In this document: positions 1,802 to 22,194 of the stretch, in pieces
Layout: each line of letters starts with the position of its first letter
Position numbering within the stretch: position 1 is the first letter of the stretch
From: Desulfobacteraceae bacterium
GTDB lineage: Bacteria; Desulfobacterota; Desulfobacteria; Desulfobacterales; JAJDOA01
DNA length: 33,222 nucleotides
Reading direction: 5' to 3'
Assembly: GCA_022340405.1 (NCBI GenBank)
Contig: JAJDOA010000044.1
Span: forward strand, 1-33,222
The notes under the pieces: generated by a model
Database searches by the model: none
Seen by the model: only the letters and a program-made list of their open reading frames with translations
What the model was told of the DNA's origin: nothing
Program-made: the position numbers and the translations under genes

Positions 1802-2641
1802 TCAGTGGGCGTCCGCGTAGCGCTCCGTATACCTCCGGAACGCCTCCATCAGACGCCGGGTGTTCGGTCCGGGAGAGCCGCTGCCGATGACGTTTTCGTC
1901 CACCTTCACGACCGGAACGACGCCCTTGCTGGTTCCGGTGATGAACACTTCCTCGGCGTCCATCAGCTCTTCTTTGTTCAAATCTCTGATATCGATAGGA
2001 AAAAGAGTTTCCGCGATCTCAAGGGTTACCCGCCGTGTGATGCCCGAAAGGATCCCCTTGCCAGGCGTGATCAGCATCCCGTCCCGAAACAGGAAAAGGT
2101 TGCTGGTGGTGCCTTCCTGCACCCGGTTTTCCCGATCGACATAGACGGCTTCCACCGCCTGGCACCGCCGGGCCTCCTCCAGAGCCATGGTGGCGGCCAG
2201 GTAGTTGATGCTTTTGGCATCGGTGATGAGCCGGTCGAAGTGGAAGGTGATGATCTTCACACCCGCGGAATACCAGCTGTCCGGAGGCGCTGCAAGCGGC
2301 GTGACCATCACCAGCAGGCGAGGTTTTCCCTGGGGTGTGAGAAAATCCGTGCTGGCGCCGCCGGTGGCGACGATGCGAATACCGGATTCTTCATGACGGT
2401 TGCGTCGAAGCGTCTCGTGAACGATGCGAATGATCTCCGCAGCGGCCCAGGGCAGTGTCAGCCCGATGCGCCGGGCCGAGTTCTCCAGTCGCTCGACGTG
2501 TTCCTCCAGATGAAAGGGCTTGCCGCGGTAAGTGCGGAGGAAATCGAAGACGCCGTAGCCCCGCAGTACGGCCAGGTCGTTGACGGGAATGCAGGCATCT
2601 GCGGCATCGACGAATTCGCCGTCCACATAGTAGACATCCAT
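1802..2641 (-). CDS. Class IV aminotransferase (branched-chain / D-amino acid aminotransferase family)
   Basis: MDVYYVDGEFVDAADACIPVNDLAVLRGYGVFDFLRTYRGKPFHLEEHVERL...EGTTSNLFLF...GILSGITRRVTLE; typical fold-type IV PLP enzyme motifs. Confidence 0.88.
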   Translation of the reverse strand: MDVYYVDGEFVDAADACIPVNDLAVLRGYGVFDFLRTYRGKPFHLEEHVERLENSARRIGLTLPWAAAEIIRIVHETLRRNRHEESGIRIVATGGASTDFLTPQGKPRLLVMVTPLAAPPDSWYSAGVKIITFHFDRLITDAKSINYLAATMALEEARRCQAVEAVYVDRENRVQEGTTSNLFLFRDGMLITPGKGILSGITRRVTLEIAETLFPIDIRDLNKEELMDAEEVFITGTSKGVVPVVKVDENVIGSGSPGPNTRRLMEAFRRYTERYADAH

Positions 2642-2881
2642 GGGAGTCAACCGTCCAGTTCCATCGTTGCGCGTGGGATCCGCCGCACAGTGGTCTTGCC
2701 GGCTCCCGGCGCATCCGGCACCCAGCTGCCTCTGTCCGTACGGTCGGAGCCGATCAGCACCGCCATACAGGCAACCCGCCCCCGTGTCAATGCGAAAGCC
2801 TATGTCGGCCGCGGGGATCCGCCGCAGGAGAGGATCAATTTTTCTTTGCTTTTGTCCCCGTTGTTTTTCATAATACGGGAA

Positions 2882-3925
2882 ATGGAACCGGCATTCCGAC
2901 GAACCCGACAGCGCCCCTCCAGCACGGAAACGATGGTGGGCATCCTGATTCTGGCGGTCCTGGCTGCTGTGGGGGCCGGGGTTCTTCACTCCCAGCAGAC
3001 CTTTCACCCCCCCGTGCAACTGAGCCGTTCCCTGCACGAATCGCCCCAGCGGAAAGATCCGCAGGGTGACCCCTCCGCAACGGTGCCCGGTTTGATCCAA
3101 TCGCCTCCATCGGGCATCGATTTGGTGGGAAAAACGGAGGCCTTTTCCCCCACGACGCTTTCGCAAAAAATCGACGGAAAGGCGGAACTGTACCTGTCCG
3201 CCGGCTTCCAGGGGCTGCGGACCCAGCGGTTCGCACCCGAGGGGGAGCGTTCGTGGTGGGCGGAGCTGTTCGCCTACGACATGGGCGGCAGCGCCAACGC
3301 CTTCTCCGTTTTCAGCACGCAGCAGCGCGACACGGGTCGGCCGGCCGACCTCGCCCGCTACGCCTACCATACCGAAAACGCGCTTTTTTTCATTCACGGG
3401 CCCTATTACGTCGAGGCGGTGGCCTCGACGGCTTCAGACGCCGTCCGGCAGGACTTGTCGAAAATGGCCCGGCGCTTCATGGAAGAAAATCCGGTCCGGA
3501 CGGAAGCGACGGCGTCGGAGATCCCCTCCCTGTTTCCGGAGCAGGGCCTCATCGAGCGGAGCATCGAGCGCATCGCTGCGGATGCATTCGGCTTCGACCG
3601 CCTCGACAACGTATATACGGCACGCTATCTCACGGCGGGGGGAGAGCAGACGCTGTTTCTGTCGCGCAGGACATCGCCCGACGAGGCCGCAGCGCTTGCC
3701 GATGCCTATATCGAATTTTTGCTGCAGTTCGGCGGAAAACGCCTTCGACCGGAGGCAGAGGGGGGCCGGCATGGGGACGTGGTCATCGTGGAAATACTGG
3801 GCGCCTTCGAGGCGGTATTTTCCCACGGACGCCACCTGGCCGGCGTGCACGAAGCTCCCTCGGCCGACGCGGCCGCGGAACTGGCGGAACGGATAGAACG
3901 GCGTCTGGAGAAGGGCCCCTCATGA
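2882..3925 (+). CDS. Conserved hypothetical protein, DUF6599-like, with N-terminal TM segment
   Basis: In-frame ATG at 2882; MEPAFRRTRQRPSSTETMVGILILAVLAAVGAGVL...; stop overlaps next start (ATGA at 3922-3925). Confidence 0.7.
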   Translation: MEPAFRRTRQRPSSTETMVGILILAVLAAVGAGVLHSQQTFHPPVQLSRSLHESPQRKDPQGDPSATVPGLIQSPPSGIDLVGKTEAFSPTTLSQKIDGKAELYLSAGFQGLRTQRFAPEGERSWWAELFAYDMGGSANAFSVFSTQQRDTGRPADLARYAYHTENALFFIHGPYYVEAVASTASDAVRQDLSKMARRFMEENPVRTEATASEIPSLFPEQGLIERSIERIAADAFGFDRLDNVYTARYLTAGGEQTLFLSRRTSPDEAAALADAYIEFLLQFGGKRLRPEAEGGRHGDVVIVEILGAFEAVFSHGRHLAGVHEAPSADAAAELAERIERRLEKGPS

Positions 3926-4911
3926 AAAAAGAAGACACCGCCGAGGCCATCGACCGCCGCGCCTTTCTGATCCGGGTCGCCAAAGCAGGGGCCTGCGCTG
4001 CGGCTACCGGTGCCGGAGCCTGGCTGCTGCACAAGGAGGAAGTTCGCACGCACACCGCAGAGGATGCCGGCGCCGCGATCCCCGATTATTCCCTGACCGG
4101 CCGGAAACCGGCCCTGGTGGTGGTCCGCGGAGCGAGCCGCGAGCGTACACTGCAGCGCGCCGTTTCGGGTCTCGGGGGCATTGAAACCTTCGTCTCACCG
4201 GGCGATCGCGTGTTGATCAAGGTGAACGCCGCGTTCGCTTCCCCGCCGTCGCTGTCGGCCACGTCCCACCCGGATCTCGTAGCCGCGGCGGTCCGGATGT
4301 GCCGTAAGGCGGGCGCCGCTTCGGTGTCCGTCACCGACAATCCGATCAACGACCCGGCCAGTTGTTTTGCCCTGACGGGGATCGAAGCGGCTGCGCGCTC
4401 GGCTGGAGCCGAAGTGATCCTGCCCCGCGAGAAGAGCTTTGCCGCCTATACGGTTCCGGGGGCGACCCTGATTCGGCGGTGGCCGGTGCTGATCGAACCC
4501 CTGCTGGCCGCCGACAAAGTCATCGGTTTGGCGCCGTTGAAGGATCACCACCGCAGCGGCGCTTCCATGACCCTGAAGAACTGGTACGGCCTGCTGGGAG
4601 GCAGAAGAAACATTTTCCACCAAGACGTGCACACCGTCATCAAGGAGTTGGCCATGATGATCCGCCCGACGCTGGTGGTGCTGGACGCCACCACTGCCAT
4701 GGTGAGCAACGGCCCCACGGGCGGATCACTCTCGGATCTGAAGCGGCTCGACACGCTGATTGCAGGCACCGATCCGGTGGCCGTGGACGCCTATGGCGCC
4801 CATCTTCTCGAAAGACCGATCGCCGAGCTGGCGTTCATCGCTCTGGCCGAACAGGCCGGGCTGGGCACCGCGGACTGGCGGTCGCTGCACCCGGATGTCA
4901 TGGACTTGTGA
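3922..4911 (+). CDS. DUF362 domain-containing protein with Tat-type signal
   Basis: MKKEDTAEAIDRRAFLIRVAKAGACAAATGAGAWLL (RR motif) then ALVVVRGASRERTLQRAVSGLGGIETFVSPGDRVLIKVNAAF...HHRSGASMTLKNWYGLLGG, characteristic of DUF362. Confidence 0.85.
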   Translation: MKKEDTAEAIDRRAFLIRVAKAGACAAATGAGAWLLHKEEVRTHTAEDAGAAIPDYSLTGRKPALVVVRGASRERTLQRAVSGLGGIETFVSPGDRVLIKVNAAFASPPSLSATSHPDLVAAAVRMCRKAGAASVSVTDNPINDPASCFALTGIEAAARSAGAEVILPREKSFAAYTVPGATLIRRWPVLIEPLLAADKVIGLAPLKDHHRSGASMTLKNWYGLLGGRRNIFHQDVHTVIKELAMMIRPTLVVLDATTAMVSNGPTGGSLSDLKRLDTLIAGTDPVAVDAYGAHLLERPIAELAFIALAEQAGLGTADWRSLHPDVMDL

Positions 4912-5005: not shown

Positions 5006-6943
5006 ATGTCCATTCGAACGGTCCGCCGCATAAGCCAGGTCTTTTTCCTGTTGCTGTTTCTGTGGTTCTGCGTGGCCATGAACCTCGGGGACCGGTGGTG
5101 GCAGCTTCGCGGCTGGCCGGTAAACTGGTTCCTGCACCTGGACCCGCTGGCCGCGCTGGCCACGGTGCTGACCACCGGCGTGCTCTACGCCGGATTGCTG
5201 TGGTCCGTGGTGTCCTTGGTTCTGACCCTGCTGCTGGGTCGGTTTTTCTGCGGGTGGCTCTGCCCCCTGGGGACCCTGCAGCAAGGAATCGGCTGGCTCG
5301 GGCAGCGGCACCGAACCCGGCAGCGACAGCTGGAGAAGAACCGACCGCACCGGGCCCAGTGCGTCAAGTACGTCCTTCTCACGGTGTTGCTGTCCGCGGC
5401 ATCCGTGGAACTGCTCAGGGCGGCGCTGCGCGCGCCGTGGGAGCACACGACGATCTTCGTGCCGGCTGCGGCGGCGGGCGTTCTCATGGCCCTGGCCGCG
5501 GCCGGCAGATCCGGAGGTCGAAAAACGGCGGTGGGCATCCTCCTGGCCACGGTGGTGTTGTGGGCCGCCCTCGGGGCCGTCGTCCCTTCCGGCGCCCTGG
5601 TGGCAGGCTCCCTGCACACCGGGCTGCTGGATCCGATTCCCCTGGCCTATCGATCGGTGAACCTGGTGCTGCTGCCTGCGGCGGATCATCAGCTCCAGAC
5701 GCTGTCTCCGGTTCCCCGCTACTATGCGGGTGCGGCCTTGATCGGAATGCTGTTTGCCTCGATATTGCTGTTTTCTCTCTGGATTCCACGGCTGTACTGC
5801 CGGTTCCTCTGCCCGCTGGGAGCGCTCTTCGGCGTTGTGGGGCGATACGCCGTGTGGCGCATCGGAAAAACCGGAGGCGCCTGCACCGACTGCAGGCAAT
5901 GCGACCGTTTTTGCGAGGGCGCCTGCGATCCGGCCGGCCGTATCCGCCAGGGAGAGTGCGTGCTGTGCGTCAACTGCCTGTCGGGGTGCCGCCAGGCCGA
6001 AATGGGTTACCGAACATCCGTATCGCAGGGGGGGGAGATCCTGTCTCCGGATCTCTCCCGGCGCGGGTTCCTGCTCTCGCTGGCTGCGGGGGCCTCGGCG
6101 ATACCCATGCTGCGCCTGGACGGCTCCCTGGCCGCCAACTGGCCGGCCGACAAGGTCCGCCCCCCCGGCGCCCTGATCGAGCCGGAATTTCTTCGCCGCT
6201 GCATCCAGTGCGGCCAGTGCATGCGCATCTGCCCGACCAATGTCCTCCAACCGGCGGGTCCATCCTTCGGGCTGGAGTCGCTATGGACCCCGGTTCTCAA
6301 CTTCCGCATCGGTTCCAGCGGTTGCCAGTTCCACTGCATCGCCTGCGGCCATCTCTGCCCGACAGGGGCCATCCGGCCGCTGGAGCTGGACGAGCGGATC
6401 GGGCGGGGGGAATACGCCCGGAAGGGGCCGATTCGCATCGGCACGGCCTTCGTGGACCGGGGCCGGTGCCTTCCCTGGTCCATGGACCGACCCTGCATCG
6501 TCTGCCAGGAAAACTGCCCGGTGTCCCCCAAGGCCATTACCACGATCGAGGATTTTCGGACGGCGATTGGAGGGGATCTGACCCTGCTTTCGGCCGATCC
6601 AACCGTGCTGGAGTTCCCTCCGGGGTCCCTGGAGACCGGACGCTTTGCCACCGGAGACTTCCGCGTCCGTGTGACGGGCCCGGCCGGTTCCCGTTTGCGA
6701 ACCATCGTGTCCAACACGGACCGCTTCGTCCAGATCACGGAATCCGATCCGTTGGATCCGGTCCCCGCAGCCGGGACGGTCGTCCAAATCCTGATCCGGC
6801 TGCAAAAACCCGTGGTGGAGCCGCATCGATGCATCGGATGCGGCGTCTGCGAACATGAGTGTCCGGTCAAGGGTCTGAGAGCCATCCGCATTACCGCCGA
6901 AAACGAAAGCCGGAATCCGGCACACGGGTTGCTGCTTTCCTGA
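5006..6943 (+). CDS. Polyferredoxin: NapH-like integral membrane part fused to NapG/MauM-like multi-[4Fe-4S] part
   Basis: N-terminal TM helices with FCGWLCPLG and YCRFLCPLG motifs; then CTDCRQC, CIQCGQCMRICP, CIACGHLCP, CIVCQENCP and CIGCGVCEHECP motifs; internal SRRGFLLSLAAGASAI. Confidence 0.88.
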   Translation: MSIRTVRRISQVFFLLLFLWFCVAMNLGDRWWQLRGWPVNWFLHLDPLAALATVLTTGVLYAGLLWSVVSLVLTLLLGRFFCGWLCPLGTLQQGIGWLGQRHRTRQRQLEKNRPHRAQCVKYVLLTVLLSAASVELLRAALRAPWEHTTIFVPAAAAGVLMALAAAGRSGGRKTAVGILLATVVLWAALGAVVPSGALVAGSLHTGLLDPIPLAYRSVNLVLLPAADHQLQTLSPVPRYYAGAALIGMLFASILLFSLWIPRLYCRFLCPLGALFGVVGRYAVWRIGKTGGACTDCRQCDRFCEGACDPAGRIRQGECVLCVNCLSGCRQAEMGYRTSVSQGGEILSPDLSRRGFLLSLAAGASAIPMLRLDGSLAANWPADKVRPPGALIEPEFLRRCIQCGQCMRICPTNVLQPAGPSFGLESLWTPVLNFRIGSSGCQFHCIACGHLCPTGAIRPLELDERIGRGEYARKGPIRIGTAFVDRGRCLPWSMDRPCIVCQENCPVSPKAITTIEDFRTAIGGDLTLLSADPTVLEFPPGSLETGRFATGDFRVRVTGPAGSRLRTIVSNTDRFVQITESDPLDPVPAAGTVVQILIRLQKPVVEPHRCIGCGVCEHECPVKGLRAIRITAENESRNPAHGLLLS

Positions 6944-7061: not shown

Positions 7062-8273
7062 ATGAACCGAAAATCCAACACCGGCTGGACCCGAAGACAG
7101 TTTCTTCATACCGCAGGCGCCGCGGGTGTCGGCGCCGTCATCGGCGGGGACCGATCGACGCAGGCGGCGGAGGAGGAACCGGTACGGGTTCCCCGACGCC
7201 CGTTCGGCAGATCCGAAAAAATGGTGTCGATCCTCTCGTTGGGGGGAATGTTCGACATCCCAAACAACCAGCTCCTGATGCGCCAGGCCCATCGCTGGGG
7301 GGTTACCTACTGGGATACGGCCGACTGCTACGGCCGGGGTCGCAGTGAGGAGGGAATTGGTAAATATTTTTCGAAATTCCCGGAACATCGGGCCGACGTC
7401 TTTTTGGTGACCAAATCCGACGACCGCGATCCGGAGGGTATGAGCCGGCTGCTGGAACGCTCCCTGCGGCGCATGAACACCGATTTCATCGACCTGTACT
7501 TCGTGCACGGTGTTCGCAACGTTCGACGCGAAATCGACGACGAAACGCGGCGATGGGCGGAAAAGGCCAAGTCGGAAGGAAAGATCCGGCTGTTCGGCTT
7601 CTCCACCCACTCCAATATGGAATCTTGCCTGGCGGAGGCGGCCGGGATGGGGTGGATCGACGGGATCATGATGACCTACAACTACCGCCTGATGCACGAG
7701 ACGGCCATGGCCGAGGCGGTACAGGCCTGTACCGAAGCCGGCATCGGGCTGACGGCCATGAAGACCCAGGGAGGCGGGCCGGTGACCACCGAGAGCGAGT
7801 CCGAGCTCGAGATGGCGGGCCGGTTCGTGAAAAAGGGGTTTACCGACCGGCAGGCGCGGCTCAAGGCGGTGTGGGAGGACCGCCGCATCGCCTCGATCTG
7901 CTCCCAGATGCCGAACATGACGATCCTGATGGCCAACGTTGCCGCCGCCGTTGATCGGACCTCCCTGTCGATGGAAGACCGCCGCCTGCTGCAGCGGCAC
8001 GCCAGGGAGACGGCTTCGGGATATTGTTCCGGTTGCTCGGACATCTGTGAATCGGCCGTCGCCGGGAGGGTTCCCATCGGTGACATCCTGCGCTATGTCA
8101 TGTATTATCACGAGTACCGCGAGCCGGAGCTGGCCCGTTCCCTGTATCGGCAGCTGCCGGAGGCGGTGCGGTACCGGATCCGCAACGGCGACTTCACCCG
8201 GGCGGAGAACCGATGCCCGCGCAGCTTGCGCATCGGGGCCATCCTCCACGAAGCGGACCGGTTGCTTTCCTGA
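7062..8273 (+). CDS. Aldo/keto reductase family protein with Tat signal peptide
   Basis: MNRKSNTGWTRRQFLHTAGAAGVGAVIGG; then AKR motifs (VTYWDTADCYGRGRSEEGIG, FIDLYFVHGVRN, IRLFGFSTHSN); C-terminal YCSGCSDIC. Confidence 0.85.
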   Translation: MNRKSNTGWTRRQFLHTAGAAGVGAVIGGDRSTQAAEEEPVRVPRRPFGRSEKMVSILSLGGMFDIPNNQLLMRQAHRWGVTYWDTADCYGRGRSEEGIGKYFSKFPEHRADVFLVTKSDDRDPEGMSRLLERSLRRMNTDFIDLYFVHGVRNVRREIDDETRRWAEKAKSEGKIRLFGFSTHSNMESCLAEAAGMGWIDGIMMTYNYRLMHETAMAEAVQACTEAGIGLTAMKTQGGGPVTTESESELEMAGRFVKKGFTDRQARLKAVWEDRRIASICSQMPNMTILMANVAAAVDRTSLSMEDRRLLQRHARETASGYCSGCSDICESAVAGRVPIGDILRYVMYYHEYREPELARSLYRQLPEAVRYRIRNGDFTRAENRCPRSLRIGAILHEADRLLS

Positions 8274-9086: not shown

Positions 9087-9935
9087 TCAACCCGCCAGGC
9101 GGATGGAAATGCCGGAGAAAACGGCCCAAGCGAGGGTCGCGGCGGTGGCCGCCACGCACGCAAATGCCAGCAGCCTGTGCAGCAGGTTTTCCCGCACCCG
9201 CTCCCCATAGCCGAGAACCATCCCCAAAATGGCCCCGGCGGCCATTCCGCCCCCATGCGCCCAGTTGTTGATTCCCGGCACAATGAAGCCGAAGAGAAAA
9301 ATCGTGATCGCCCACACCCCCACTTGGCGGTATACCGCCGTGCCGTAAACACCGCCCCGGCTCTTGCCGAAGTAGAGAATGGCCCCCATCAGGGAACAGA
9401 CCGCCGCCGAAGCGCCGATGGTGAAGACGACGCCTGCCAGGTAGGAGGCGAGAAACCCGATGGACCCGCCCAGCGTGTAGATAATCAGCATTCGGTAGCC
9501 GCCGTACTCTCTCGCGACGAAAGGGCTCAATTGGTAGAAGGCGATCATGTTGAAACCGATGTGCAGCAAATTGGCATGAAGCCAGTTGGCGGAAATCAGC
9601 GACCACCAGCGGTGGAACCGATCCACGGGGATGGTGCCGGTAGCCCCCAGCAGCAGCAGGCTCTGGTTGCTTGGCGCCAGGGCCGTCAGCGGGTTGAAGG
9701 AAGTGCCGCCCGATCCCGATTGGAGCAGTACCGACAGCAGGTACATGCCGACGTTGAGGATGATGACGGAGCGGATCAGACGGGCCGGGTCGCTGAAAAT
9801 GCGAAGCACGGGATGGCTCTTCCACCACGCGCCGGGACGCGAGAGGCCGCAGTAGGGACAGCGGGAATCGTCCAGACTGACCAGTCGTTGGCAGTTGGGG
9901 CAGAGTGTGGCGTTTCGTTTGGCAGATCGGTTCAT
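9087..9935 (-). CDS. Rhomboid family intramembrane serine protease with N-terminal zinc ribbon
   Basis: MNRSAKRNATLCPNCQRLVSLDDSRCPYCGLSRP (CxxC...CxxC) then TM helices with GASAAVCSLMGA (catalytic Ser) and NNWAHGGG (catalytic His). Confidence 0.87.
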   Translation of the reverse strand: MNRSAKRNATLCPNCQRLVSLDDSRCPYCGLSRPGAWWKSHPVLRIFSDPARLIRSVIILNVGMYLLSVLLQSGSGGTSFNPLTALAPSNQSLLLLGATGTIPVDRFHRWWSLISANWLHANLLHIGFNMIAFYQLSPFVAREYGGYRMLIIYTLGGSIGFLASYLAGVVFTIGASAAVCSLMGAILYFGKSRGGVYGTAVYRQVGVWAITIFLFGFIVPGINNWAHGGGMAAGAILGMVLGYGERVRENLLHRLLAFACVAATAATLAWAVFSGISIRLAG

Positions 9936-10005: not shown

Positions 10006-10293
10006 TCAGCAGCAGGCGTCGCCGCAGGAGGCCGCTTCTTTTCCGCGCAGCCAGGTTTGAATGATGTACGCCGCGCAACCGACGCCGGGCGTGAGCCCGA
10101 TGGCATGCACCGGGCAGTTCACGGCGCAGGCGCCGCATTCCATACATCCGTCCCGGTCTCCAACCCGGGCTTTTTTCTCCTCCAGGGTGAAGACCCGGTG
10201 GGGGCACACCTGCACACAGGCGCCGCAGCCGATACAGGCTTCGGTGTCCACTTTCAGCGTCGTTACATCGGGCAGATATCGAAACGTTTCCAA
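10006..10293 (-). CDS. hgcB: Mercury methylation ferredoxin HgcB (start uncertain: TTG at 10293 or TTG at 10326)
   Basis: CIGCGACVQVCP and CMECGACAVNCP [4Fe-4S] motifs, GVGCAAYIIQTW, C-terminal CGDACC, immediately downstream of hgcA. No in-frame ATG upstream; the TTG at 10293 gives 95 aa. Confidence 0.92.
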   Translation of the reverse strand: METFRYLPDVTTLKVDTEACIGCGACVQVCPHRVFTLEEKKARVGDRDGCMECGACAVNCPVHAIGLTPGVGCAAYIIQTWLRGKEAASCGDACC

Positions 10294-10315
10294 TTCTCCG
10301 TATGTCCTTTCGGCT

Positions 10316-11566
10316 TCATGCGGCAAAGGGTGCCGCGATCCAGGCCGCAGTCCCCGCCAGCAAGCATAGCATCTGCAACGGAAGGGCCGTTCGCATTTCT
10401 TTTTCCACCCCGGAAGGGGATGTGTAGGGGGTGGAGCCGGTGAAGTTCATGGCCATGAAGGAGCCCACCGCGACCGTGGCGGCCAAGACCGCGGCCGCGT
10501 TGAGAAGCGGCGAGCCGGGAATGCCGGCAACAACCCACATGGCGAGGATTCCCGCTGGCAGGCTCGTGAAAAGCCCTTTCACTGAAAATCGCCGGGTCGG
10601 AAGCCACGGCAGAAGCGCCGGCATAGCCACAGCGCCGGCGAAAAGCCCCATCAGGCAGGCGAACACCAGCGCCCATCCCCTTGTCCATGCCTGGGAGATG
10701 GAAAAAACATCCGGACCGATGCCGGAAAGAAAAAACGCGGCCGCAACGGCCACCATAGCGGGCTTGACGGCCCCGGCCAGCTCCACCGGAACCAGAACCA
10801 GGCGCTCTGCAAGAGAGAACGTCACCGTTCGCATCTCCTCCGAGGCGATGTTGTCCGCCCGGAGAAATGCGGGGATGTCCGCAGCCCTCACCGGTCCCCA
10901 CACGACATGGAAGCCGCAGGCCTTCCGCACCTCGTGGGCGGAGACACCGGTGGCGGACAGCTGCGGCAGAATCAGCCGACGGTGGCGCACCACCCGGGTC
11001 AGGTCAACGGCGCCGACTCGCCGCACCACCTCCGATGTGGAAAAAAGAGCCTTTCCGGCTGCGCACCAGACATTGACACCCCTTGTGTCGAGAACGAGGA
11101 TCCAGGCGTCCACGCCCTTCAGTGCCCCGCGAAGGGAATCGAAGCTGAGTTTGTAATTGGCCGACGCCATAACCGGGGCATCGGAATTCGGCCGGCCCAC
11201 CGCATACAGCCCGGGGGCGACCCGATAGCGGCTGCGAATGATGCCGATGCGTGCGCCCGCCGCACCCACCCGGTCTCGAAAATCGAACCGGGTGCGAACA
11301 CGGGGGACGGCTCCTGCAGGGGTTTCCACAAACGCCTCCACAAAAGGGCAGATGCGGTATCCGGGCCTTTCGCAAGCAGCGCTGGGTGGTCCGGGCGGCG
11401 GTCCGCAGCAGACGTCCCCGGAGCAGGTTTCGTCGCTGGAGGCAGGAACCGTTGCGGTTTCCGCGCCGATGGTTGAGGCCCCGTGCATGGGAAAGGATGT
11501 CGTCGGAGAACAGGCTCCGTCCTGGCAGCAGCAGGGGGTATCGATGGGTTTCGGGGTTTCGGTCAT
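10316..11566 (-). CDS. hgcA: Mercury methylation corrinoid protein HgcA
   Basis: NVWCAAGK cap-helix motif (11051-11074); corrinoid-domain signature RVRTRFDFRDRVGAAGARIGIIRSRYRVAPGLYAVGRPNSDAPV; about five C-terminal TM helices ending NFTGSTPYTSPSGVEKEMR. Confidence 0.95.
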   Translation of the reverse strand: MTETPKPIDTPCCCQDGACSPTTSFPMHGASTIGAETATVPASSDETCSGDVCCGPPPGPPSAACERPGYRICPFVEAFVETPAGAVPRVRTRFDFRDRVGAAGARIGIIRSRYRVAPGLYAVGRPNSDAPVMASANYKLSFDSLRGALKGVDAWILVLDTRGVNVWCAAGKALFSTSEVVRRVGAVDLTRVVRHRRLILPQLSATGVSAHEVRKACGFHVVWGPVRAADIPAFLRADNIASEEMRTVTFSLAERLVLVPVELAGAVKPAMVAVAAAFFLSGIGPDVFSISQAWTRGWALVFACLMGLFAGAVAMPALLPWLPTRRFSVKGLFTSLPAGILAMWVVAGIPGSPLLNAAAVLAATVAVGSFMAMNFTGSTPYTSPSGVEKEMRTALPLQMLCLLAGTAAWIAAPFAA

Positions 11567-11672: not shown

Positions 11673-12665
11673 TCAGTTTCGCCCCGTCCGGGCATGATGG
11701 GCGGCAATGGCTTGTGCTTCCTTCTCGATCGACTCCCGAAGGGAAGCGGGCTCCAGGACGACGGCGTTGGCTCCCCAACTGAGCGCCCAGTGTTTCATGG
11801 CTTCGAGTCCGGCCACCCGCGCCTCGAAGATCACGGAGCCGTCGGCGCCCTCCGTGATCTTCTGGGTATCGTGCCACTTTTTTTCTCGGATGTAGCCCGC
11901 CGCGGGGGGGGTGAAACGAATGCGGACCGTGCAGGGTTCGCCCAGGTAGACGCCGAAGCTCTGGCGGATGCGCCTTTCGATGTCGAAATCCTCCGGCGCC
12001 TCGAAACTTTCTTCCAACCGCTTGAGGCTCCGGATCCGATCCAGCGCGAAGACCCGTATATCGCCGCGCACCCGGCAGAATCCGATCATGTAGAAAGCAT
12101 CGTCGAAGAACCAGATCTTGTACGGCGCGACCACCCGACGGGTCTCTTCGTCCCGGCTCATCACATGGTATCGGATGTCCAGGCATTTTCGCCTCTCGAT
12201 GGCCTCGCTGATCGATTCGATGAGATCCTGTACATCGCCGTGTTGCCGGTGCGGTCTGGGTGCGGCGACGATGCTCGCTTCCATGCGCTCCAAAAACTGC
12301 AAAACCGCTGGCTGCAGCGTGGACTTCACCTTGTCGAAAAGCGTGTCCAGCGATTCCTGGAAAACCCGTCCTTGCAGTGTTCGCAGCATGTGGCGGCTCA
12401 AGTACAGGGCGGTCAGTTCGGTCATATTCAGCGGAAGCGGGACGTGATGCTTGGCCGCATCAATGATCGCCCAGTGGTTCTTTCCCTCCCGGCGTTCCGT
12501 GTACAGGGGGAAGCCCGCCGCCTGCAACGCCTCCAGGTCGCGGTAGACCGTTCGGGGATGGCATTCGAGTGCTTCGGCCAGTTCGGCCACCGTCTTGCCC
12601 AGATGGGAAGACAGCAGCCGCTGGATGATTTTCCACTGGCGGCTGAGTTGATCCCCACGTGCCAT
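11673..12665 (-). CDS. YafY/DeoR-type HTH and WYL-domain transcriptional regulator
   Basis: MARGDQLSRQWKIIQRLLSSHLGKTVAELAEALECHPRTVYRDLEALQAAGFPLYTER (HTH); WYL-like core RRVVAPYKIWFFDDAFYMIGFC; GGAG RBS before the 12665 ATG. Confidence 0.88.
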   Translation of the reverse strand: MARGDQLSRQWKIIQRLLSSHLGKTVAELAEALECHPRTVYRDLEALQAAGFPLYTERREGKNHWAIIDAAKHHVPLPLNMTELTALYLSRHMLRTLQGRVFQESLDTLFDKVKSTLQPAVLQFLERMEASIVAAPRPHRQHGDVQDLIESISEAIERRKCLDIRYHVMSRDEETRRVVAPYKIWFFDDAFYMIGFCRVRGDIRVFALDRIRSLKRLEESFEAPEDFDIERRIRQSFGVYLGEPCTVRIRFTPPAAGYIREKKWHDTQKITEGADGSVIFEARVAGLEAMKHWALSWGANAVVLEPASLRESIEKEAQAIAAHHARTGRN

Positions 12666-12915
12666 GATCTTCTCCACATTTGCATCCACCACGACCCTGC
12701 GGCCCCGACTCCGAATGCCTCACGATGGAAACCGGCCGGCGTTTGGGGCGATATGAGGCGGGCGGTGCGGGCGCAGAAACACTCCCCGCAACCGGTGCAG
12801 GAGGGAGATCCTACGGTTGCAGAACCGGGGAACCTGTATGGCCACACCCGCGGAAACGGCCGGTTGCGGAGCGACCGAACGGAGGTACCAAACCGAGAAG
12901 CGATTTCGGTCGGGA

Positions 12916-14005: not shown

Positions 14006-14103
14006 ACATGACCCGATGGGCGGAAATGGCGCTGGACGCCCTGATGATGGTGCTGCTGCTGGCGATGGCCGTCGGGGTGACCCTGGTTTACGGGCTGCCG
14101 TGA
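14002..14103 (+). CDS. Possible 33-aa single-TM micropeptide
   Basis: MNMTRWAEMALDALMMVLLLAMAVGVTLVYGLP; ATG overlaps the TGA of the 61-aa ORF (ATGA, 14002-14005). Confidence 0.4.
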   Translation: MNMTRWAEMALDALMMVLLLAMAVGVTLVYGLP

Positions 14104-16106
14104 ACCGGGGTTTTTGGGGGGCGGAACCGCCGCACCGTCTTTTTCAGGCGGCGGAGGTGATATTCCGGATCCTTCGAGGCGTACCGTACCGCCACATAGT
14201 CCTGCGTCACCCGGCGAACGGTCTCGGAAAGATCCGGCCGTGTGCTGGTCACGATTTTGGCAAAGGCCACAGGCCCCTGATGCGGACTCCGCTCGATACC
14301 GACATCCGAGAGGCGGCGGCAGAACTGACGGTAGAGCCGCTGCACGGGGTCTTCGTGAACCGATTTCCGCTTTCGGATGCGCAGGAAAAAGAACAGGCCG
14401 TACAGCGCGGCCAGTCCGGCGACGGCGAGCACGGCCCAGGCCACCGCCTTCCACCGGGAGGCGTCCAGTCCGAAGGTATTGTACAGCATTCTCTGGCGGA
14501 AATAGTCATAGCCCAGCACCCATTTCTGCCAGCGGTTGTTGATGAGATCCAAACCGAAGAGCAGTGGTTTCCAATACTTGCTCAGCGGTCCCAGATAGGG
14601 GTTGCTGAAAAGGGCCTCGCGCTCCTCCGGGGTCAATGCCGCCGCCGTTCCCTGTTCGATACGTGCGGGCATGACCACGGACGTGGGATCCACGCGGGTC
14701 CACCCCCTCTCTTCCAGCCAGACCTCCACCCACGCATGGGCGTCAGACTGACGCACGATCAAGTAGTCGCCGTATGGGTTCCGTTCTCCGCCGAGATACC
14801 CTCCCACCACACGGGAAGGAATCCCGGCGGCACGCATCAAGAAAGCGAAAGCCGAAGCATAATGCTCGCAATACCCTCTTCGGGTATCGAAGAGCAGGGC
14901 GTCGATGGGTTCCTCCTTGGTTTCGGGCACCTGGAGCGAATAGACGAAGCGATTGCCGGCCAGAAAGGCGAGGGCCGCGTCGATGATCTCCTGCGGTGAG
15001 GAAAAATCGCGGGCCCACTGCTCCGCCAGGGCCCGCGATTTCGGATTGCCCTGCGGTGGAAGCCTTCGGGTGCGCAATCGCTCCCATCCCTGCAAGGGCC
15101 CGGTTCGGTATTGCAGGTACGACTTCAGCCGGTACTGATATGTGGCGTTCACTTTTCGCCATCGAATCAGCGTGTGATCGGCCAGTGGAATGCTGCCGAT
15201 GGGGTCGCTGAAGGGAATATCGAGGCCGAAGACCCAGCGCTGGCCGTGCGGTTCCAGAATGATGGAGTAGGACACGGTCTGGGCGCCCGTGGGATCCGTC
15301 CCTCTCCGGGGCGCACGGGAGGCCCGATACCATCGTTTCCCGTCGAAGTCCTGGAAAACGATCCCCCGCCAGTACAACCGGTCCGCCGGGGGGATGGACC
15401 CGTCGAATTCCACACGGAAGGCGATTTCCTGGTTCTGCACCAGGCGACTGACGCTGCCCGGCCGGATCTCGTCGCTGAGTCCGGTGGTGCCGGTGGACGC
15501 CTTGGGCGATCCCCACAGGCCGCTTGGAAGCCGCGGAAACACCAGAAACAGAATCGCCGCCAGCGGCAGGGCCTGCAGCAGGATGCGGCCCGACAGCCGC
15601 AGATGGGAAAGAAAAGGGCCGTCGGGGTTGTTGATCTGAATGAGCACGGCCGATGTAACCAGCACCGAGGCAAACATGTACAGCGCCATGAACAGATCGT
15701 TGTTGTACAGCAGGTTGGTGATGACGAGAAAGTAGGCCAGAAAGAGCGTGATCATCCGATCGCGGTGGGTCCGGATCTCCAGGGGTTTCAGCCCGAGCAT
15801 GATGGTGAGAAGCCCCACACCTACATCCAGGTCGAAGGAAAACCCGTAAAGGAACAACCCGCCGAACAGACCTGCAACCGTCAGCGCAATCCGTGTGCCG
15901 GGCTGCGGGCCGGCCCGCCCCCTCCGCTCCACCCAGTCTGCCCAGATCCACAGCAGCAGGCACCAGGCCACAACCCAGATGGGGAGTCGTCCGGCATGGG
16001 GGGCGATGGCCACCACCAGCGCCAGAATGACCTGCCGAAGCAGGCGGCTGCCGGGTCTTCCGCCCCAAAGAAGTTTGGCGAAGGGATCGGTGAGCGATGC
16101 GTTCAT
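14088..16106 (-). CDS. TgpA-like transglutaminase (DUF3488 membrane domain and transglutaminase core)
   Basis: N-terminal TM helices; catalytic region TRRGYCEHYASAFAFLMRAAGIPSRVVGGYLGGE...DAHAWVEVWLEERGWTRVDPT. Confidence 0.92.
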   Translation of the reverse strand: MNASLTDPFAKLLWGGRPGSRLLRQVILALVVAIAPHAGRLPIWVVAWCLLLWIWADWVERRGRAGPQPGTRIALTVAGLFGGLFLYGFSFDLDVGVGLLTIMLGLKPLEIRTHRDRMITLFLAYFLVITNLLYNNDLFMALYMFASVLVTSAVLIQINNPDGPFLSHLRLSGRILLQALPLAAILFLVFPRLPSGLWGSPKASTGTTGLSDEIRPGSVSRLVQNQEIAFRVEFDGSIPPADRLYWRGIVFQDFDGKRWYRASRAPRRGTDPTGAQTVSYSIILEPHGQRWVFGLDIPFSDPIGSIPLADHTLIRWRKVNATYQYRLKSYLQYRTGPLQGWERLRTRRLPPQGNPKSRALAEQWARDFSSPQEIIDAALAFLAGNRFVYSLQVPETKEEPIDALLFDTRRGYCEHYASAFAFLMRAAGIPSRVVGGYLGGERNPYGDYLIVRQSDAHAWVEVWLEERGWTRVDPTSVVMPARIEQGTAAALTPEEREALFSNPYLGPLSKYWKPLLFGLDLINNRWQKWVLGYDYFRQRMLYNTFGLDASRWKAVAWAVLAVAGLAALYGLFFFLRIRKRKSVHEDPVQRLYRQFCRRLSDVGIERSPHQGPVAFAKIVTSTRPDLSETVRRVTQDYVAVRYASKDPEYHLRRLKKTVRRFRPPKTPVHGSP

Positions 16107-17104
16107 TTCCGTCCCGAAAACTCCCCTGCGCTTTGTCGACCGGCGTTCTTTGGCTGCGCGGAAGCGGAATCCAGTCCATAGAGGGCGAGCGTTTCCAGGC
16201 AGCGCCGGCGATGCCGTTCTCCGCGACCGGGCTCAACGATGCCGGACGGAAGCCGCAGGCCGTATTTCATTCGACTTCGATGGCCCTGCTGCACCATGTC
16301 GCAAAGCCTGGACAACTTCGTTTCCACGTCGGGTTCGGGAAGGGCGTACCAGTCGAAAAGCGGTGAGATGCCCTCTTCGCCCGCAAATTGCTTGACCATC
16401 AGGCCCCGGCCCCGTGAAAAGGCTTTCCAGGAGACCCGATGCAGGCTGTCACCCGGCTGGTATCCGCGCATGCCGGTGAAATCCTCAGCGCCGGTGCCGG
16501 AAGGCTTTCCCCCGGCCCCGGGATCCCGTGCGTCACCGGCCGTAACCAGCGGCCCCGGAAGGGGTTTCGGATACACCAGACACGCGGCGTCGCTCCGGTA
16601 ATGCGTCCAGGCGCGGAACAGACCGAAGGGATAAACGCTGGACAGGACCACCGTCTCCAGCGGCTTCCTACCCCGATGCCGTGTGGGGACCGGCAGCGAG
16701 GCGGAGGCGCTGTTGTCCGGGCAAACACGCAGATCCCGGGCCCTGCCGGATGAAACGGCCAGGTGCACCGCTTCGGCGCAGCGCGATGCGCGGAGCCGGC
16801 ACTCGAACAGGGCCGGCTGGCCGGCAAAAACGGGAGCACAGCGGACGCCGTCGACGCGCACACCGGCAAGATTGTGGTGGGTGTGCACCGCGGAGACCAG
16901 CACTAGGCTCCCCAGCAGGAAGGTCAAAAGAAATCCCATGTTGTTTCCGTAGTTGGCGGAGCCCATCAGCATGGTCAGCAGGACGACGAGAAAAATGGCT
17001 CCGTAGCGCGTGGGGAAAACGTAAATGCGTCTGGCACGGTTTCGGCTGCCGAATCGGAAGCTAGCCGGAAGCGGAATTCCCGGCATTTTCAGAAGTTCGT
17101 CCAT
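16103..17104 (-). CDS. DUF58 domain-containing protein
   Basis: MDELLKMPGIPLPASFRFGSRNRARRIYVFPTRYGAIFLVVLLTMLMGSANYGNNMGFLL...EDFTGMRGYQPGDSLHRVSWKAFSRGRGLMVKQF; ATGA overlap with the transglutaminase start. Confidence 0.92.
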   Translation of the reverse strand: MDELLKMPGIPLPASFRFGSRNRARRIYVFPTRYGAIFLVVLLTMLMGSANYGNNMGFLLTFLLGSLVLVSAVHTHHNLAGVRVDGVRCAPVFAGQPALFECRLRASRCAEAVHLAVSSGRARDLRVCPDNSASASLPVPTRHRGRKPLETVVLSSVYPFGLFRAWTHYRSDAACLVYPKPLPGPLVTAGDARDPGAGGKPSGTGAEDFTGMRGYQPGDSLHRVSWKAFSRGRGLMVKQFAGEEGISPLFDWYALPEPDVETKLSRLCDMVQQGHRSRMKYGLRLPSGIVEPGRGERHRRRCLETLALYGLDSASAQPKNAGRQSAGEFSGRK

Positions 17105-17207
17105 TCGCCGATGACCTCTGCTCGTTTGAAGACTCCCCGCCGTTGCGGTTCCCGGGATTTCCGCTTCGCTCCAACAAGCGGCGGGGAATGCGCTCGCTGG
17201 CGCCGGA

Positions 17208-18161
17208 TCAGGGAACCGGAACGGAGCGGAAGATGGCGGCCAGCCGTTCCGCTGGTATCTCGGCGAAATGCTCCGCAGAGCGCAGCCGGTGACCGACAAC
17301 CCATGGAAAAACGGTCTGCAAATCTTCGGGCAGCCCGAATTTACGGCCGTTGAGATACGCCCATGTACGGGTGGCCCGCAGCAGCGCCAGACCGGCCCTG
17401 GGCGAGAGCCCCACCGCAAAATGCTCCGAGCGCCGCGTGAAGTCCAATAAATCCTGAGCATAATCCAGAAGGGCGTCCGACAGGTGCACGCCGGCGGCCC
17501 GCCGCTGGATGTTGAGCACGTCCGGGGGTTCGAGGCAGGAGGCTGTGTCATCGAAGATCGTCTTGGCATCGCCTTGCTGCAACAGCAATTTTTCCGATGC
17601 ACGGTCCGGATATCCCAGCGTGATCCGCATGAGAAAGCGGTCGAGCTGGGATTCGGGCAGCGGAAAGGTTCCGGACTGCTCCAGCGGATTCTGGGTGGCG
17701 ATCACGAAAAAAGGGGGTTCCAGCGGACGCGTGCTGCCCTCTGTCGTCACCTGACGCTCCTCCATGGCTTCCAGCAGCGCGCTCTGGGTCTTTGGGGTGG
17801 CCCGGTTGATCTCGTCGGCCAGGAGGACCTGGGTGAAAATCGGCCCGGGGTGGAATACGAAGCGGCCCGTTTTTTGTTCGAACACCGACGTTCCGAGAAT
17901 GTCGCCGGGAAGCATATCGCTGGTGAACTGGACGCGTCGAAACTGCAGGCCGAGACAGCGCGACAGCACCTTGGCGAGGGTTGTCTTGCCGATTCCCGGA
18001 AGATCTTCGATAAGAAGATGCCCCTCCGAGAAAAGGCATGTCAGCGCCAGACGGATCTGGCGCTCTTTACCCAGGACGATTCCACCGATCTGTTCGACGA
18101 TGGCGTCGAATTTTTCTTTCACACCCGAATCGCCGAAGGGTCGTTTCAGCGCCGTTGCCAT
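17208..18161 (-). CDS. MoxR-family AAA+ ATPase
   Basis: Walker A GIGKTTLAK; LLADEINRATPKTQSALLEAMEERQVT; ATQNPLEQSGTFPLPESQLDRFLM. Confidence 0.95.
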   Translation of the reverse strand: MATALKRPFGDSGVKEKFDAIVEQIGGIVLGKERQIRLALTCLFSEGHLLIEDLPGIGKTTLAKVLSRCLGLQFRRVQFTSDMLPGDILGTSVFEQKTGRFVFHPGPIFTQVLLADEINRATPKTQSALLEAMEERQVTTEGSTRPLEPPFFVIATQNPLEQSGTFPLPESQLDRFLMRITLGYPDRASEKLLLQQGDAKTIFDDTASCLEPPDVLNIQRRAAGVHLSDALLDYAQDLLDFTRRSEHFAVGLSPRAGLALLRATRTWAYLNGRKFGLPEDLQTVFPWVVGHRLRSAEHFAEIPAERLAAIFRSVPVP

Positions 18162-18229
18162 TGGGATGTTCCGTTTCCTGTGGTTTCGGCGTCCATCCGG
18201 TTCACGGCGGGCGCCGGTGTTGATAACGA

Positions 18230-18478
18230 TTAGCGACGGGTTCGGCAGAAGCAGCCGGACGAAGGAGACCGAAGCGGCGTCCGGCCAGAGGGCCAAAGCC
18301 CGGATGAGTCCACTCCTGTGTCGCCTCCTGCCGCATGCGAACGGCATACACTGCAGCGGTCGTCCGCGCAGTTCTGGCAGGAAAAGCAGTCCCGGCATGG
18401 ATGCTTCTTCGTTTGTGCCGAAGCGTCTTCCGGTACGTATACTTTTCCACAAAGACCGGAAATTCTCACAAACGGCAT
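18230..18478 (-). CDS. Small Cys-rich protein (82 aa)
   Basis: MPFVRISGLCGKVYVPEDASAQTKKHPCRDCFSCQNCADDRCSVCRSHAAGG...: CxxCxxCxxC plus CxxC cluster; GGGAG upstream; same strand as, and just upstream of, moxR. Confidence 0.6.
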   Translation of the reverse strand: MPFVRISGLCGKVYVPEDASAQTKKHPCRDCFSCQNCADDRCSVCRSHAAGGDTGVDSSGLWPSGRTPLRSPSSGCFCRTRR

Positions 18479-18567
18479 CTTGGATCGTCTCCCTTTTCCA
18501 TCGCAGTCCGCAATTCCAAGAGGCACCGGAATCGAATCTCCGGCGCAAAGCGCCTTCCCTGACACAT

Positions 18568-20295: not shown

Positions 20296-22194
20296 TCAGA
20301 AAGCCTGATTCGGCGCCAAGCGGCTACGGCGCCGTACCGCCAGGCTGAGGTGTCGGCCGTTTTCCGAGAACATGAGCTTCTTTTCCTCCATCAGGGACAG
20401 GTAGGACCGGATGCTGCCGCTGTGCAACCGGGAAAACCGTTTTTCGATCTCCGCCAGCGAGCGGTGCTCCCGGCAGAACAGATAGATGTCCCGGCTGGCA
20501 CCCACCAGACGGTGCTGATCGGCAGGCGCATCCGGATGCCTCCGGTGCAGGAGGAGAAAGGTGCCGCCGTCGCGAAACCCCAGAACGGGTTCTCCCGGCA
20601 CTTGGCGCATCATCCTTTCGTAACGGTCGGTCCAGCGGTGCACGGCCCGGTAGACCGGCCGCCACAACTTCCGCTGCCGCACGCGGTCTCCCCGATACGA
20701 CAACAGCGGAAACCGTAACCGGCGCACAAGCTCGGCCGGTAGCAGGTGCCGGTAGTGGGGATGATTGAACACGGAGCGGACGCCGTAGGCCTCGGGGTGT
20801 CGGGATACCGCACTCCCCCTGCCCAGCCAGAACGGTACGATGTGCAGCGGGCGATACACCCGGGCGAAAGGCAGCACGCGAAGGGTTTCGGCCACGTCGT
20901 CTGCATCGCTTCCAGGAAAGTGGACGATGAGGTTGGCACGGTTGGCGATGCCGAGCTCTTCGCAGATTTTCATGATCTGCAGGCTCTGAATCGCCGTGGT
21001 ACCCTTGTTGAGCTTGTGCAGCAAGGAAGTGCTCAGCGCCTCGATCCCGGTCTGCACCTCTTCCACGCCTGCCCGGCGCAGGGCCGCGAGTTCCTGCCGG
21101 CTCACCGACGGCCGGATTTCGGCAAACAGGGAGTAGTCGCTTCCGTCCTCACCCAGCGGAGAGAAGGTTTCTACAATGCCGTCGGGCGGAAGTGCATTGT
21201 CCATGAAAGCCGCCGAGAGAACCCGATGCCGTGCACTGAGGTGGCGGAGCTCGGATCGGACGCGTTTTGCGCTTTTTGCCCGGTAGCCCTCCCACTGCAG
21301 GTTCAGGTTGCAGAAAGCGCATCCCCTTCCGGTCCCTGCGGCGTCCTTTTTTCGCCACCAGCAGCCGCGGGAGGCTTCAAGGCACAGTGTCGGGAAAAAC
21401 CGGTCGGCGGGCGGCAAACCGGCCAGGGTATGGAAATAATCGTCGAAATCCGGTGGGGGAAGTTCGTCCAGTCGGCGAATCTGTTCGAAGCCTCCCCTGC
21501 CGGCAACCCCCTCGGGGGTGCGAGCGAACAGCCCCGGAACCTCTTCGGGATCCGTCGCTCTCCCGGGCCGTCGGAGCCAGTCCACCAGCCGTGCCAAGGG
21601 TCTTTCCCCCTCTCCGACAACGGCGAAGTCCACCTCGGGCAAAGCGGTGAGCCAGTCCCGGACGAACGCCTCGTTGAGAAAAGATCCCCCGATCACGATT
21701 TTCAAGTGCGGATGGCGACGGCGCACGTAACGGACGGCATACAGCGTCGCCGTCAGCTGGCAGAGGCAGACGGAAAACCCCGCCAGGTCGTATCCGGACC
21801 AGTCGATCGCCTCCAACGCAGCATCGGTGGCCGAGCGCACCCGCCGGCACAGCGCGGGGAAATCCACGCTTTGCAGCTTCCGCCTGCCGGCAGACTCCTT
21901 CCGAAACACCGCCTGCGCTCGATCGGCCTTGTCCGGAAACAGCAGCGCCGCGTATACGCTCTCGGCCGGCCAGGTGCGTCGGGACACCTGCCGGTAGTCG
22001 TCATACCCGACCGACTGCGCCACCGTCAGGTAGAGATGGGCGGCATCCACCGTCAGCCCGGGATGCCGGTGCCGCAGATAGGCCTTCAGGGTGCCGAGTT
22101 GAATGGAGGGCCGGGTCACCATCGGCCACGGCATGGAAACCAGGATCACCCCCCGAAGCGGTTGGGACCGTTCAGTGGCTTTCGGATGGGTCAT
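20296..22194 (-). CDS. B12-binding-domain radical SAM protein, RiPP-maturation type
   Basis: RGVILVSMPWPMVTRPSIQLGTLKAYLRHRHPGLTVDAAHLYL; LEASRGCWWRKKDAAGTGRGCAFCNLNLQWEGYRAKSAKRV; NRANLIVHFPGSDADDVAETLRVLPFARVYRPLHIVPFWLGRGS. Confidence 0.85.
   Translation of the reverse strand: MTHPKATERSQPLRGVILVSMPWPMVTRPSIQLGTLKAYLRHRHPGLTVDAAHLYLTVAQSVGYDDYRQVSRRTWPAESVYAALLFPDKADRAQAVFRKESAGRRKLQSVDFPALCRRVRSATDAALEAIDWSGYDLAGFSVCLCQLTATLYAVRYVRRRHPHLKIVIGGSFLNEAFVRDWLTALPEVDFAVVGEGERPLARLVDWLRRPGRATDPEEVPGLFARTPEGVAGRGGFEQIRRLDELPPPDFDDYFHTLAGLPPADRFFPTLCLEASRGCWWRKKDAAGTGRGCAFCNLNLQWEGYRAKSAKRVRSELRHLSARHRVLSAAFMDNALPPDGIVETFSPLGEDGSDYSLFAEIRPSVSRQELAALRRAGVEEVQTGIEALSTSLLHKLNKGTTAIQSLQIMKICEELGIANRANLIVHFPGSDADDVAETLRVLPFARVYRPLHIVPFWLGRGSAVSRHPEAYGVRSVFNHPHYRHLLPAELVRRLRFPLLSYRGDRVRQRKLWRPVYRAVHRWTDRYERMMRQVPGEPVLGFRDGGTFLLLHRRHPDAPADQHRLVGASRDIYLFCREHRSLAEIEKRFSRLHSGSIRSYLSLMEEKKLMFSENGRHLSLAVRRRSRLAPNQAF

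Follow-up and report, generated by a model that had tools for sequence, protein, structure and literature searches.

A predicted mercury-methylation operon, hgcAB, with a cysteine-rich HgcA N-terminal tail in a Desulfobacteraceae bacterium

The question raised by this locus is whether two adjacent genes in the window (the whole stretch of 33 222 nucleotides that was analysed) are a true hgcAB pair, and whether their products would make methylmercury. The first-pass annotation had proposed hgcAB at 10006-11566; both genes are present there, on the minus strand, and both score above the curated cut-offs for their families (NF040863 and NF040864). The genes, the HgcA tail and the immediate neighbours are as follows.

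10316-11566, minus strand: hgcA, encoding a 416-residue corrinoid/membrane protein (from NF040863, translation and tree)
11366-11566, minus strand: Cys-rich N-terminal tail of HgcA, residues 1-67 (from translation and Cys positions)
10006-10293, minus strand: hgcB, encoding a 95-residue dicluster ferredoxin (from NF040864 and Cys numbering)
11673-12692, minus strand: HTH-WYL-WCX transcriptional regulator (Pfam WYL 1.1e-20, WCX 5.1e-23, HTH_11 3.8e-11)
9087-9935, minus strand: rhomboid-family membrane protein (Pfam Rhomboid 1.3e-22; start at ATG 9935 assigned by inspection)

On translation, hgcA runs from an ATG start at 11566 to a TGA stop at 10316, and neither its reading frame nor that of hgcB contains an in-frame stop. 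The protein matched the curated equivalog NF040863 with 429.8 bits (E 6e-129; cut-off 275 bits) over profile positions 1-324 of 325, the match beginning at residue 87, and HgcB matched NF040864 with 124 bits (E 2e-36; cut-off 99 bits), so that the HMM search suggested as a check on the annotation came out in its favour for both proteins. Equivalog-level matches at these E values exclude a chance origin. The cap-helix motif NVWCAAGK occupies HgcA residues 165-172, with the codon of Cys168, the equivalent of Cys93 in Pseudodesulfovibrio mercurii (Desulfovibrio desulfuricans) ND132, at 11065-11063. The C-terminal membrane domain, also noticed in the first reading, is seen as hydropathy segments within residues 256 to 412, a region spanned by the NF040863 match, and PYTSPSGVEKEM begins at residue 380 within this hydrophobic C-terminal half. 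An extension of hgcA 5' of ATG 11566, where the frame is open to TTG 11707, was not taken as coding, support for it not being found. A search for a sigma-70-like promoter before hgcA gave a single match, at 11601-11574, which equals the chance expectation.

The mechanically assigned start of the hgcB reading frame, TTG 10326, lies inside hgcA. The gene probably starts instead at TTG 10293, which we preferred because it agrees with both the family profile and the ND132 numbering; with hgcA ending at 10316, the two genes are then adjacent on the same strand, in the gene order found in relatives. Numbered from TTG 10293, HgcB has the two CxxCxxCxxxCP motifs ascribed to it (Cys20/23/26/30 and Cys50/53/56/60), and the remaining cysteines, at 73, 90, 94 and 95, include the additional Cys and the terminal CC pair that had been pointed out: Cys73, the Cys of GVGC, lies within GVGCAAYIIQTW, and Cys94-Cys95 form the terminal pair. 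With the exception of Cys90, the Cys numbers equal those given for ND132 HgcB (PMC7305189). The window system thus resembles that of ND132 in the cap-helix Cys, in the C-terminal membrane domain of HgcA and in a dicluster ferredoxin HgcB with Cys73, Cys94 and Cys95 at identical positions.

Two families of paralogs have to be weighed against this assignment. The large subunit of the corrinoid iron-sulfur protein (CFeSP; CdhD/AcsC family) of the Wood-Ljungdahl pathway shares the corrinoid-binding domain with HgcA: PF03599, common to both, matched the window protein with 45 bits over residues 114-233, and CFeSP large subunits (PDB 4djd, 2h9a) are its nearest solved structures, though for the corrinoid domain only, residues 115-240, which agrees with what has been published for HgcA. 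However, CFeSP has neither the cap-helix Cys nor the membrane domain, a comparison of the window HgcA with the CFeSP gamma model (cut-off 306) yielded no more than 67 bits, and separate CdhD/E-type genes lie on another contig of the genome (C162). In the phylogeny that had been proposed as a check, the window sequence grouped with 48 other HgcA sequences, and these 49 were split from the five CFeSP rows with support of 100/100. CFeSP paralogy is therefore refuted by tree and HMM scores together, and we give it a negligible probability. The second alternative, a paralog of the HgcA-like (HgcAB-like fusion) kind with no activity in mercury methylation, draws on a 199-bit match to NF043039 and on the occurrence of such paralogs in relatives, likewise with NVWCAA-type motifs. 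That score, however, is below the NF043039 cut-off of 285 and far under the 430 bits obtained with the HgcA model, and HgcB, with its Cys73 and CC, is encoded by a gene of its own. When three HgcA-like fusion paralogs were added to the tree, all 49 HgcA fell on one side of the split, with a lower support of 88/78. Disfavoured chiefly by the HMM scores, this identity too is very improbable, if marginally less so than CFeSP paralogy. The final tree omits the very long HgcA-like rows L108, L111 and L112; it was rebuilt without them because the first tree, which included them, gave a weak split (38/92) and long-branch warnings. Within Desulfobacterota HgcA it gives the window protein no fixed nearest neighbour, and the highest identity to any other HgcA in the set is 59% over the core (L084, from Deltaproteobacteria bacterium RIFOXYD12_FULL_57_12). 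The window pair is a bona fide hgcAB, a well-described two-gene system that is present in dozens of relatives and introduces no new mechanism; NF040863 matches above cut-off were found in 37 of the 96 same-order genomes searched when the rows are counted, or 36 by the search program's own total, the window's own included.

A third possibility concerns function rather than descent, namely that these are true hgcAB genes whose host shows no appreciable Hg methylation, owing to low expression or to another native substrate. What HgcAB does natively is a matter of debate (PMC10349881), the regulator gene upstream of hgcA is of the WYL type, where many methylators are described as having arsR, and measurable methylation is not universal among hgcAB carriers, eight of nine tested methanogens being positive in the account given in PMC5893877. 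Against this, the catalytic residues are all kept and there are no signs of decay, and we consider the possibility unlikely, although it carries more weight than either paralog. All residues shown to matter by mutagenesis in the ND132 papers cited here are present in the window HgcA and HgcB, and it is because of this that we infer the same function as that of ND132 HgcAB. Judged from its sequence, the window almost certainly holds an hgcAB operon of the usual kind, seemingly intact, which would make methylmercury.

The steps by which it would do so follow from published work on P. mercurii ND132 (PMC7305189, PMC11588087). HgcA, anchored in the membrane, would bind cobalamin, its Cys168 serving as the lower (Co-S) ligand, and the two [4Fe-4S] clusters of HgcB would reduce the cobalt to Co(I). 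The Co(I) would then take a methyl group from S-adenosylmethionine, the donor identified in vitro in 2024 (PMC11588087), and the resulting methyl-Co would methylate Hg(II). Delivery and removal of the Hg would fall to HgcB Cys73 and Cys94/95; in ND132, Cys73 and the terminal pair are required for activity, and a shuttle of Hg or methyl-Hg has been proposed (PMC7305189). The host genome contains dsrA (533 bits), which fits a dissimilatory sulfur metabolism, and dsrA together with CdhD/E-type genes is a common background of anaerobic methylators. A search for merB gave no match, but its positive control gave none either, and the result carries no weight. It is reasonable to predict, as the first-pass annotation did, that the host is a Hg methylator, and the locus would then extend the list of predicted methylmercury producers by a sulfate-reducer-type lineage, which is useful for environmental surveys.

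The most test-worthy part of the locus is the N-terminal tail of HgcA, which falls outside the NF040863 match. It contains cysteines at positions 12, 13, 14, 19, 48, 53, 54 and 65, with a CCC at 12-14 and a CCG pair at Cys53-54; the CCG tail motif recurs in L084 and other Desulfobacterota relatives (QDEPCCGLPPGPPSS), in which hgcB likewise lies downstream. Among relatives whose sequence extends far enough, the stretch preceding the HgcA core carries 3.8 Cys/Sec per 53 residues, compared with 1.2 per 97 residues between this stretch and the NVWC motif, and a C-C or C-U pair occurs in the pre-core stretch of 72 of 91 relatives. HgcA and HgcB are known to include selenoproteins (listed in a table of PMC13188914; Haft and Gwadz 2023, as cited in PMC11588087). 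Of 100 loci, 19 have an in-frame TGA as the second codon of the HgcA pair (CUG; for example L016, L022 and L071), and the GVGC of HgcB is GVG-TGA (GVGU) in 23 loci among L007-L106 (for example L024, L033 and L069). No locus within L007-L106 has Sec in both proteins; because the two states fall largely in two clades, this exclusion is no independent statistic. These Sec sites align with Cys54 of HgcA and Cys73 of HgcB in the window, which, unlike the selenoprotein forms, has Cys at both; selenocysteine is ruled out here, as in-frame TGA is absent from both genes.

A similar pattern is found in Pseudodesulfovibrio (the genus of L059), where all 20 uncut hgcA loci (within L123-L143) have an in-frame TGA after a Cys, exactly 110 codons before NVWC, the codon at this site being always TGA and never TAA or TAG. 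This is consistent with a Cys-Sec pair and with an hgcA start upstream of that implied by the Cys93 numbering. If ND132 is like its genus, its annotated HgcA starts after the Sec position, because its cap-helix Cys is numbered 93, which suggests that the standard ND132 numbering begins after the tail. Whereas the tail of the window HgcA, about 67 residues long, is in frame and all-Cys, the Cys93 numbering of ND132 implies a much shorter annotated N-terminus. The conservation of the CC/CU pair suggests that the tail is functional, and it probably helps to bind Hg or thiols or to handle their redox chemistry. This part of HgcA is left out of the curated model and apparently precedes the published numbering. 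More tentatively, it could be a working part of the methylation machinery itself, for Hg(II) capture or thiol/redox exchange, whose function would have escaped testing because numbering in the model genus starts downstream; we regard this fuller proposal as a serious one, if somewhat short of an even chance.

Immediately upstream of hgcA, in the same orientation and ending 106 bp before it, lies the gene for the WYL protein, whose product is a possible regulator of hgcAB. In this the window differs from ND132, where the upstream regulator is ArsR-like; published upstream regulators comprise ArsR-like, PrlF/MazE-like, GntR and MarR types and one unnamed putative regulator (PMC10349881 among the sources), and our literature search, judged by titles and abstracts, found no published link between a WYL regulator and hgcA. 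A related WYL gene is absent from the fetched flanks of L084 and the other Desulfobacterota relatives, tblastn giving no match near hgcA in relatives, although many of these flanks are short and the rarity is indicative only. On the other side, the rhomboid-family gene lies directly 3' of hgcB both in the window and in L017 (near 6537). Further along the window, a NapH/NapG-like polyferredoxin membrane protein is encoded at 5006-6943 on the plus strand, next to genes for a TAT-signal aldo/keto reductase (7062-8273), a DUF362 protein (3253-4911) and a DUF6599 protein (1805-3925). The minus strand also carries a cluster of a TgpA-type transglutaminase and a MoxR-type AAA ATPase at 14088-18548 and, about 9 kb from hgcA, a radical SAM protein at 20296-22194 with a sub-threshold match to a B12-binding domain.
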